DNA from: Nitrosopumilaceae archaeon
Lineage (GTDB): Archaea > Thermoproteota > Nitrososphaeria > Nitrososphaerales > Nitrosopumilaceae
Assembly: GCA_011523285.1 (NCBI GenBank)
Contig: WTHC01000014.1
Span: 1 to 32,826 of the forward strand
DNA length: 32,826 nt
Direction: 5' to 3'
The position numbers and the translations under genes were made by a program. The notes below the pieces were generated by a model, which saw only the letters and a list, made by a program, of their open reading frames with translations, was not told where the DNA came from and searched no databases. Below are positions 24,513 to 32,826 of this stretch, piece by piece; position 1 is the first letter of the stretch; each line of letters starts with the position of its first letter.

Positions 24513-24905
24513 ATGTCACTAAATAAGATTAATACAATTACGAAAAATAAGCCTAATTTTATAAGAAAAGAAAGCTGGCGCTATAAAAGACTTGAAACAA
24601 CGTGGAGAAAACCTAAAGGTATAGACAATCACCAGAGAAAGCAAAAAAAGAGTGTTCCTCCAATTGTAAAAGTTGGTTACCGTGGACCAAAAAAAACTAG
24701 AGGGTTACATCCATCAGGATATACTGACAATTTAATATATAACATAACAAACTTAGATAAATTAAATCCCAAATTAGATGGTATACGAATAGGACACAGT
24801 GTAGGCACAAAAAAGCGCGAGCAGATTGTCACACAAGCAATAAAAATGAGATTTAAAATTTTTAATAGCAGGGTAATGAAAAATGGTAGTAAATCTCAAA
24901 GCTAA
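24513..24905 (+). CDS. rpl32e: Large ribosomal subunit protein eL32
   Basis: eL32 is an archaeal/eukaryotic large-subunit protein. NFIRKESWRYKRLETTWRKP and VGYRGPKKTRGLHPSGY are diagnostic, with IRIGHSVGTKKREQIVTQA near the end. The 130-aa length is normal. In most archaea it lies between uL6 and eL19 in the spc operon; here eL19 follows with a 23-base overlap but uL6 is absent, and the divergent pckA lies upstream. Confidence 0.94.
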   Translation: MSLNKINTITKNKPNFIRKESWRYKRLETTWRKPKGIDNHQRKQKKSVPPIVKVGYRGPKKTRGLHPSGYTDNLIYNITNLDKLNPKLDGIRIGHSVGTKKREQIVTQAIKMRFKIFNSRVMKNGSKSQS

Positions 24906-25338
24906 AAAACAATTAATTTCACGAGTAACCAAAGTAGGAATAAATAGAATAAAGTTTAATTTAGAAAATCTAGACGAGATAGCGGATGCAATAACTAGAG
25001 AAAATATAAGAAGTTTAATCACAGCAGATAAAATAAAAATAAACCCAATACGAGGAATATCCAGAGGTCGAAGTAAAGCAAAAAAGGAACAAAAAAGTAA
25101 ACGTGGTACAAAACCAGGTTCAAAACATGGAAAAAAAAATGCTAGGCTAGGTAGGAAAAAAAAATATATCAGTAAAGTACGTTCCTTACGCTATAGATTA
25201 AAGATATCAAAAAAACATGGAGATATTACAAATAAAGTGTTTTGGAACATGTATAAAAAAATCCAAGGGAATAGAATAAGGAATAATGCACATCTAAGAG
25301 AGCTGTTGAATGAGGAAATTAAGAAAAAAAATCAATAG
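24883..25338 (+). CDS. rpl19e: Large ribosomal subunit protein eL19
   Basis: eL19 forms an intersubunit bridge. VNLKAKKQLISRVTKVGINR is the family N-terminus; ENIRSLITADKIKINPIRG and GISRGRSKAKKEQKSKRG follow, and a long basic helix ends the 151 residues. The start lies within the last codons of eL32, so translation is probably coupled. uL18, its usual downstream neighbour, is at 19485 on the opposite strand. Confidence 0.95.
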   Translation: MVVNLKAKKQLISRVTKVGINRIKFNLENLDEIADAITRENIRSLITADKIKINPIRGISRGRSKAKKEQKSKRGTKPGSKHGKKNARLGRKKKYISKVRSLRYRLKISKKHGDITNKVFWNMYKKIQGNRIRNNAHLRELLNEEIKKKNQ

Positions 25339-25360: not shown

Positions 25361-26123
25361 TTAGATTCTAATAATTTCCATATCTAAATTAGATATTAAA
25401 TGAGGTACGTCATTCATTTTCAATTCATTTGTATCTATAATAATAGAATCGGCCATATAATTTCGTTTTAATATATGATTAAATAAAACGCGATTGAGAA
25501 ATTTGATATTATATGACGGTATAATTGTTCCGAATGCATATTTACCGTGAATAATTTCGTTTGTAAACTTATCAGGATAATGAGTACCGCCAAGATCTAT
25601 AGATGTACTATATGATTTTTTAATTGGTAAATTTTGCATGACTATTTCAGATATAGATCTACACAAAGCAACATCATTCCATTGTGTTTCAGTAGTGCCT
25701 ATTTCTATGAATAAAGTAGGCTTATGAAGTGATGAAGCCCATGATGAGTAGCTTCTAGAGTGATTTTAAATTTTTGAAAATTATTTCTATTATTCCATAA
25801 TGATCTAATATACGATTTTTGTAAATATGGATGCGGCGTAGATACTTGTTGTATTTGATTAGTAGAATTTGTTTGGACAATACCAGTAGAATGACATGTT
25901 AATGAGAGAATATTGGATTTTGCTGCGTGTTTTGATAAAAAAATATAGCCTTCATAATCGTCGTATTTAGCGATCCAATCTGCATAAATAGTAGGTGAAT
26001 TTATTATAATAACATCGTAAAATTGTCCTTTGTAAATACCATTTTCCATTTTCATGGTACTGGAGATATGTTTGGCCATATTATACCCAGCAGCATCATT
26101 TCATATGCTATAATTAACTCCAT
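25361..26123 (-). pseudogene. dtdA: D-aminoacyl-tRNA deacylase (DtdA) interrupted by two frameshifts
   Basis: Archaeal DtdA removes D-amino acids from tRNA. Three reading frames join into one full-length protein of about 253 aa. The start MELIIAYE (ATG 26123) shifts into NDAAGYNMAKHISS. The middle frame has IYADWIAKYDDYEGYIFLSK, LTCHSTGIV and ITLEATHHG. The last frame has KPTLFIEIGTTETQWNDV, DLGGTHYPDKFT and GTIIPSY. One base is missing in an A-run at about 26099-26101 and one in a G-run at about 25738-25740; each puts an in-frame stop shortly after. Neither site is a canonical slippery heptamer. All motifs are otherwise intact, so the loss is recent or is a sequencing error. Confidence 0.88.
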
Positions 26124-26131
26124 GAATAAAA

Positions 26132-26140
26132 TTATAAATA
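26132..26140 (+). promoter_or_regulatory. TATA box of secE, in a possible bidirectional promoter
   Basis: TTATAAATA is centred 25 bases before the ATG at 26161 and decides that start for secE. The same AT-rich stretch, read on the other strand (TATTTATTTATAA), lies at a suitable distance for dtdA, whose ATG is at 26123. The two genes would share 37 bases of control DNA. Confidence 0.5.
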
Positions 26141-26160
26141 AATACTATTTAATCTCACCA

Positions 26161-26331
26161 ATGAGTATGACTACAATTAAAAATATGATAAACACAATAA
26201 AACTTGCAAGGAAATCAGATAAAGAGGATTATATGCAACATTTTAGACTGGTATTATTAGGCATATCCACGATAGGAATGATTGGATTTATAATTCAGTT
26301 TGTATTTTCTGTAATACAATTGGACAGATAA
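26161..26331 (+). CDS. secE: Protein translocase subunit SecE (Sec61 gamma)
   Basis: SecE clamps SecY. The mature-looking product is 56 aa: an amphipathic cytosolic helix with LARKSDKEDYMQHFRLV and one membrane helix LLGISTIGMIGFIIQFVFSVI. The ORF track extends to 26023, but those residues overlap dtdA on the other strand and are not conserved. ATG 26161 gives the normal archaeal length and has a TATA box 25 bases upstream. It is followed by spt5 and uL11, the conserved archaeal secE-spt5-uL11 order. Confidence 0.9.
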   Translation: MSMTTIKNMINTIKLARKSDKEDYMQHFRLVLLGISTIGMIGFIIQFVFSVIQLDR

Positions 26332-30324: not shown

Positions 30325-32826
30325 ATGAATAGAGACATTATGAAGAAATTTTCTTCGAATCCAGATAAATATTATAAAACTAAATTATTTGAAGATCATA
30401 ACTTTAAACGTATAATGTGTGTGCAATGTAAGAGATTTTTTTGGACATTAGATGAAAATAAAATATTATGCCCAGAAGATGAAGATGATACTCATTCATT
30501 TATTGGCAACCCGCCTACTAATAAAAAACTCGATTATGTAAAAACATTACATGAAATTAAGTCTTTTTTTGCAGAAAATAATCACACAATAATTAATAGA
30601 TATCCGGTAGTATGTAGATGGAGAGAAGATCTATATTTTACGATTGCGTCAATAGTTAACTTTCAAAGAATTATTGATTCAAAAGTAATTTTTGAATTAC
30701 CAGCAAATCCACTCCTAGTACCACAAATATGTTTAAGATTTAATGATATAGAGAATGTTGGAATAACTGGAAAACATTTTTCCAGTTTTTGTATGATTGG
30801 ACAACATAGTATATACAATGAACTTGGTGGATATTGGAAAGACAAATGTATAGAATTAGATTTTAAATTATTAACAGAAAAATTTGGAATTAATAAAAAT
30901 AAGATAGTGTTCATGGAAGATGTGTGGGAAGGTGGAGGTTCTTTTGGAGCGTCTTTAGAATATTTTGTAAATGGTTTGGAATTGGGAAATGCTGTGTTTA
31001 CTGAATTTCAAGGCAGATTAACTGAATACACTAAACTGAAACAACTTGTAGTAGATATGGGAGCAGGGCTAGAAAGAATGTCATGGATAACTACAGGCAG
31101 CCCAACTGCGTACGATTGTTGTTTTGGCAACATCACAAAAAATCTTATCCAGAAAGCTGGTATTGATATACCTAATCATACACTACACAAATATTTCAAA
31201 GAAATAATTCAAAATAAAAAATATAAAAATATTTTAGAATGTAAAAATAAAATAATCAATTCTATCGGTATGTCAACACGAGATTTAAACAATATTTTAG
31301 CACTTGAATCTATATACTTAATTTTAGATCACATACGGACATTAATTTTTGCAGTAAAAGATGGAATGATACCTAGTAATGTAGGAGGAGGATACAATTT
31401 AAGAATAATCACAAGAAGAATTATTGCCGCCATAAATAAACTACAAACAAAAATAAACATAAATGAAATAATAAATGAAGAAATAAACTATTTAAAATAT
31501 GCATATCCAGAAATAACAAATGCTGAAAAAGATATCAACATAATAATAGATATAGAATACAAAAGATATTCAGAATCAAAAAAAAGAATTGATAAGATAG
31601 TAACAAAAATGGATATAGATAATAAAAAACCAAATGTAGAAAAATTAATGAGACTATATGAATCTGATGGTATAACACCAGATTATTTGAAAGAACGTAA
31701 TATAATTTCAACATATCCAGATAATTTTTATTCACTTTTATCCAAAAAGAATGAACATATAAAAACACATTCTACAAATATATTGGAGCTTGAAGGCATT
31801 CAAAAGACAGATCTGCTTTTTTATAAGACTGATCCTACAGAATTTAAGGCCAACATCCTAAAAGTATATGACAAATATATAATATTGGACCGTACTGCTT
31901 TTTATGCTCGTGGAGGGGGACAAGAACCAGATCATGGAAAAATATATTCCTACAATGTTATAGATGTAAAAAAGTATGAAGGAGTGGTAATACATGAAGT
32001 AGATCGACATATCAATGATATTAAAACTGGCGACGTTGTTAATTGTTCAATAAATATAGAACGTCGTAGAAATATAACGAAGCATCATACAAGTACACAT
32101 ATAATCAATTCAGCATCACGTAAAATATTAGGCAATTGGGTTTGGCAGAATTCAGCTTTTAAAGATAGTAAATATGGAAGACTAGACATAATTCATCATT
32201 CTAGTTTAACAAATGATGAAGTTATAAAAATAGAAAAGATATCCAATGACATAATCCAACAGGATCTAATTGTAAATATAAAAGAATATGAAAGAAAAAT
32301 AGCTGAACAGAAATTTGGTTTTAAGATTTATCAAGGAGGCGTAATGCCATTAAAGATAATACGGATTGTAAGTGTGGGATATTTCGATATAGAAGCATGT
32401 GGAGGAACACATGTTAAGAGAACTGGAGAAATTGGTTTGATCAAAATAATCAAAACAGAAAGAATACAAGACGGAGTCATTAGAATAGAATTTGTATCAG
32501 GAGAAAAAGCTGTAGAATATATTCAGGAACAAGAAAATCAACTTACAAAAATTACCGAATTATTACAAACAGAAAAACATAGAGTCATGAAATCTTTTCA
32601 AAACAAATTGATAGAATTAGAAGAAACTAAAAAAAAATTGAAATATACTCTTGAAAAAACATCTGAAAATGATATTTATGAAATCATCCAAAAATCCAAA
32701 ATTTATGGAAAATTGAAACTATATTTATTGGTAGAATATAAATTGGACGAAAAATTTCATATAAATATAGGCAAAAAAGCAACAAAGAAAGATCCGTTAT
32801 TAGTATATTGTGTATTAATAATAAAG
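30325..32826 (+). CDS. alaS: Alanyl-tRNA synthetase, archaeal type (C-terminus cut by window edge)
   Basis: AlaRS charges tRNA-Ala. The ORF is open from ATG 30325 to the right edge (834 codons, no stop), which is why the ORF track omits it. The archaeal N-terminus has a Cys motif (MCVQCKRFFWT, then ILCPEDE), followed by the class II core: RYPVVCRWREDLYFTIASIV, NPLLVPQICLRF, NVGITGKHFSSFCMIGQH and MGAGLERMSW. The editing domain carries HHTSTHIINSASR and EACGGTHVKRTGE, giving the H-x3-H and C-x3-H metal site. A coiled C-terminal part begins near residue 730. In other archaeal AlaRS a fourth Cys follows the third in the N-terminal motif; here Asp/His occupy that stretch. Confidence 0.95.
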   Translation, partial: MNRDIMKKFSSNPDKYYKTKLFEDHNFKRIMCVQCKRFFWTLDENKILCPEDEDDTHSFIGNPPTNKKLDYVKTLHEIKSFFAENNHTIINRYPVVCRWREDLYFTIASIVNFQRIIDSKVIFELPANPLLVPQICLRFNDIENVGITGKHFSSFCMIGQHSIYNELGGYWKDKCIELDFKLLTEKFGINKNKIVFMEDVWEGGGSFGASLEYFVNGLELGNAVFTEFQGRLTEYTKLKQLVVDMGAGLERMSWITTGSPTAYDCCFGNITKNLIQKAGIDIPNHTLHKYFKEIIQNKKYKNILECKNKIINSIGMSTRDLNNILALESIYLILDHIRTLIFAVKDGMIPSNVGGGYNLRIITRRIIAAINKLQTKININEIINEEINYLKYAYPEITNAEKDINIIIDIEYKRYSESKKRIDKIVTKMDIDNKKPNVEKLMRLYESDGITPDYLKERNIISTYPDNFYSLLSKKNEHIKTHSTNILELEGIQKTDLLFYKTDPTEFKANILKVYDKYIILDRTAFYARGGGQEPDHGKIYSYNVIDVKKYEGVVIHEVDRHINDIKTGDVVNCSINIERRRNITKHHTSTHIINSASRKILGNWVWQNSAFKDSKYGRLDIIHHSSLTNDEVIKIEKISNDIIQQDLIVNIKEYERKIAEQKFGFKIYQGGVMPLKIIRIVSVGYFDIEACGGTHVKRTGEIGLIKIIKTERIQDGVIRIEFVSGEKAVEYIQEQENQLTKITELLQTEKHRVMKSFQNKLIELEETKKKLKYTLEKTSENDIYEIIQKSKIYGKLKLYLLVEYKLDEKFHINIGKKATKKDPLLVYCVLIIK

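Follow-up and report, generated by a model that had tools for sequence, protein, structure and literature searches.

Probable recent inactivation of dtdA, encoding a DTD2-type D-aminoacyl-tRNA deacylase, at least twice within a small-genome genus of Nitrosopumilaceae

A proofreading gene that is spread over three reading frames raises the question of whether it is a true pseudogene, an intact gene misread by sequencing or assembly, or a gene whose pieces still yield a protein. Such a gene, dtdA, lies in the 32,826-nucleotide stretch of DNA analysed here (the window, WTHC01000014.1, contig C26 in our numbering), which belongs to a metagenome-assembled genome (MAG) of a Nitrosopumilaceae archaeon (GCA_011523285.1, hereafter G000; 826,649 bases or 0.83 Mb, 54 contigs, 93.7% completeness). 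The family, DTD2, clears tRNA of D-amino acids, whether plain or modified by aldehydes, and counts as the guard of archaea against D-aminoacyl-tRNA and its aldehyde adducts (PMC10942605). According to the ORF list and the alignment, dtdA runs on the minus strand from an ATG at 26123 to a stop at 25361, passing through all three frames. The largest frame left open, of 124 amino acids (25705–26079, minus strand), covers positions 3–78 of the Pfam profile PF04414 and ends at a stop after His-His-Gly, and the third-frame remainder (25361–25708, minus strand) covers positions 89–198. Each of these two pieces passes the profile alone: they score 59 and 71 bits, where the cut-off is 33.6. Nearly all family motifs are still kept, and the joining of the start frame, the 124-residue frame and the third frame into one DtdA, proposed in the initial annotation, was found as described. 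By Pfam on the pieces and by its motifs, the G000 gene is thus the same as DTD2/DtdA (PF04414; NCBIfam PRK03995 group), the D-aminoacyl-tRNA deacylase of archaea and plants. What sets it apart from working members is the absence of a continuous full-length frame, two breaks separating the three frames, and we class it as a pseudogene of the family.

The nature of the two breaks was seen from a three-way alignment with the other genomes of the genus, G001 (COS1_bin_11, JAPOVD01) and G002 (MEX2-MAG6, JAHRAP01). The dtdA of G002 is a single intact frame of 253 amino acids, with D-aminoacyl-tRNA deacylase as its best NCBIfam match, at a score under the cut-off of that model; the locus L051 matches contig C64 of G002 at 100% over 10,008 bases. 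At break 1 (about 26098–26102, minus strand) both congeners have one extra base: they read CAT after GAG/AAA, and G000 reads AAATG, passing straight from GAA to ATG without that C. At break 2 (about 25735–25740, minus strand) G000 is one base short inside the Gly-Pro codons of the conserved His-His-Gly-Pro, a motif that is invariant in the intact relatives across the family. Compared with G002, each break costs the frame one base, so the two go in one direction, as had been noted before. The initial annotation had further placed the losses in a triple A and a triple G; the coordinates (26101–26099 and 25740–25738) are correct, whereas the CAT of the congeners and the HHGP motif do not assign the missing bases to those runs. 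On the aligned sequences, neither loss need stem from a homopolymer run, and this weakens the usual explanation by sequencing error.

The sister species G001 carries dtdA in the same syntenic place, broken by at least four frame breaks that differ from those in G000, and five stops (three TGA and two TAA) fall inside its family match. Break 1 of G000 is absent from G001, and near break 2 G001 is two bases short rather than one. Two independent inactivations, one in G000 and one in G001, would be the simplest history of these alignments. A sponge origin of G001 is hinted at only by its isolate name (COS1), which says nothing for G000. The alignment also bears on the idea that programmed frameshifting or another kind of recoding yields a full-length DtdA. 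The common direction of the breaks and the kept motifs would agree with recoding, but two shifts would be required, no common slippery element is seen in the three sequences, and no shift site is conserved across the relatives, the breaks of G001 being of another kind and G002 needing none. Intact relatives, among the matches listed, use one frame. We regard recoding as extremely unlikely.

Of 47 family columns conserved at 90% or more, 11 are substituted in each of G000, G001 and G002, a further difference from working DTD2, as intact relatives depart at 0–6. Most of these departures fall at the same columns in all three genomes, so dtdA was already evolving quickly in the genus.

To gauge the error rate, the neighbourhood of dtdA was compared with G001. 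The window is collinear with contig C5 of G001 along its entire length, and both genomes with a broken dtdA keep its flanking genes whole and in synteny. On one side lies a convergent, intact gene resembling rpl19e (putative name; 24883–25338, plus strand), with an intact homologue in G001 at 74%. On the other is a divergent secE-like gene (putative name; 26122–26331, plus strand), a 70-amino-acid ORF with 90–93% conservation in G001 and G002. Its start codon overlaps that of dtdA in a CATG (26121–26124) and is conserved in G001 and G002 alike, so that the dtdA promoter would sit within the secE coding region. Farther away, alaS (archaeal alanine-tRNA ligase; 30325–32826, plus strand; TIGR03683, 775 bits) runs off the window and, as far as seen, forms one open frame, in a single frame against G001. 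In the translated comparison with G001, clean single-frame full-length matches numbered 38 in the window and 79 in the overlapping part of another contig, C29 (about 77 kb). Thirteen flagged cases, mainly the larger ones, were inspected and turned out to be alternative starts or ends or antisense ORFs; the rest were mostly short antisense ORFs. Over about 110 kb of synteny (window and C29), dtdA is the sole gene found frame-broken in G000 or G001. The earlier statement that no other gene of the window needs a frame correction is borne out by single-frame matches to the syntenic G001 genes, apart from end effects. The suggestion of genome erosion fared less evenly: the genome is indeed small, but no other frame-broken gene was found in the roughly 110 kb sampled, and general genome decay in G000 is not evident there.

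These comparisons weigh on the reading in which two false one-base deletions disrupt an intact dtdA. G000 is a draft MAG judged from assembled sequence alone, both deficits are of a single base only, and the motifs are preserved, all of which would suit an error. Against it, neither site need be a homopolymer slip, no other break was found among the window genes compared or along about 77 kb of C29, and the independent assembly of the sister species is broken in dtdA too, by different indels. As the main reading, homopolymer error was set aside because, judged by the relatives, the missing bases need not come from the runs, and the other compared genes are clean.

Substitutions in dtdA were polarised using G001 as outgroup, counting the changes private to G000 or to G002. 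On the G000 branch 28 were synonymous and 35 nonsynonymous; G002 had 35 synonymous and 16 nonsynonymous (Fisher p = 0.014). Six flanking genes gave 117/83 on G000 versus 122/65 on G002, synonymous to nonsynonymous, an asymmetry that is not significant (p = 0.18), and dtdA set against these genes on the G000 branch alone gave p = 0.059. The counts modestly favour relaxed selection on dtdA along the G000 branch. Pairwise dN/dS of dtdA was 0.12 for G000–G002, 0.20 for G000–G001 and 0.11 for G002–G001, and the median of the other window genes against G001 was 0.122. The G000–G002 value is ordinary, from which it follows that the inactivation would be recent. Taken together, the substitution pattern agrees with constraint having been lost recently in G000, although it is not strong alone. 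An ordinary overall dN/dS against G002 would equally accompany an intact gene marred by error; the nonsynonymous excess on the G000 branch speaks against this, and with the evidence given above we hold an error of sequencing or assembly to be improbable. Even less probable is that expression of the pieces gives a split protein, partly functional or repurposed. The 124-residue ORF with an internal ATG does persist, but the ORFs that are left miss the start region or the Gly-Pro junction, the G001 gene is in still smaller pieces, and the G000 branch shows the modest signs of relaxed selection just described.

A genuine pseudogene could be compensated by another deacylase. The family has one match in G000, and a DNA search returned one full match and otherwise a chance-like match of 27 bases on C29; no second copy was found in the assembly by either search, nor did the 124-residue piece match when scanned against the genome contigs. 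Since the MAG is 93.7% complete and in 54 contigs, a second dtdA on missing DNA is possible. A profile search did not find DTD1 (PF02580) in G000, G001 or G002. Only one of the 61 genomes searched has it, an order-level relative that also carries DtdA (L045, G078:C45:6657-7082), where this rarity among relatives may reflect either transfer or contamination. Loss of a source of D-amino acids was considered as the cause. Asp/Glu racemase (PF01177) and alanine racemase (PF01168) were not found in the genus, but most relatives with a retained dtdA lack them as well; their absence explains nothing about the cause, and this candidate was rejected.

Throughout the class the gene is seldom missing. 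The PF04414 family is present in 208 of the 220 genomes surveyed (completeness at least 90%, contamination at most 5%), and among the matches listed dtdA is intact in 0.8–1.2 Mb genomes of other genera and families; DTD2 is thus kept by nearly all genomes of the class, small ones included. Outside the genus, all matching genomes score at least as strongly as 1e-50 except G142 and G206, whose partial matches lie at contig edges and were most likely cut there, so that we do not count them as further broken genes; beyond the matches listed, another broken copy is conceivable. Five well-assembled genomes outside the order (G103–G107, families f19 and f20) have neither DtdA nor DTD1; older clade-wide losses of DtdA or a replacement of unidentified type are possible there.

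With a sister gene independently broken, an intact congener, clean neighbours and no second dtdA or dtd1 found, the genuine recent inactivation proposed in the initial annotation holds. Comparison with relatives, which it had called for, gave the intact frame of G002 and the different indels of G001. We consider it very probable, on sequence grounds, that dtdA in G000 is a recent pseudogene, independently broken in the sister species, and that purifying selection was relaxed at least twice within the genus. Two small deletions would have split the sole D-aminoacyl-tRNA deacylase gene of the G000 lineage; full-length DtdA would then be impossible by ordinary translation, and a functional product is presumably absent. 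G001 would have broken its copy independently, through at least four other indels. The genomes of the genus, at about 0.8 Mb, are about half the size of those of most Nitrosopumilaceae relatives; they keep the archaeal amoA, and the members are therefore presumably ammonia oxidizers. The relaxation of selection on DTD2 proofreading may come from a lower need, where cells seldom meet D-amino acids or aldehydes, or from drift in a small-population lifestyle. Our literature search found no paper describing this dtdA loss, and none on this genus or on MEX2-MAG6 or COS1_bin_11.

The event is ordinary by mechanism, being a pseudogenization, and unusual by its target gene. It resembles the pseudogenes of reduced-genome, often host-linked microbes in the small genome, the recent indels, the independent losses and the retention of the gene by larger relatives. 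It differs from them in that no general pseudogene load appears in the sample, that dtdA is near-universal in the class and that G000 is known here without an established host link. Whether the genus is shedding tRNA chiral proofreading altogether, with at least two species devoid of any known D-aminoacyl-tRNA deacylase (DTD2 or DTD1), is a closer call, which we judge slightly better than even. Two independent losses beside an intact congener offer a natural comparison for when the DTD2 guard is dispensable, and if the loss of proofreading is true, these species would be natural knock-outs bearing on the claimed dependence of archaea on DTD2 for protection from D-amino acids and aldehydes.
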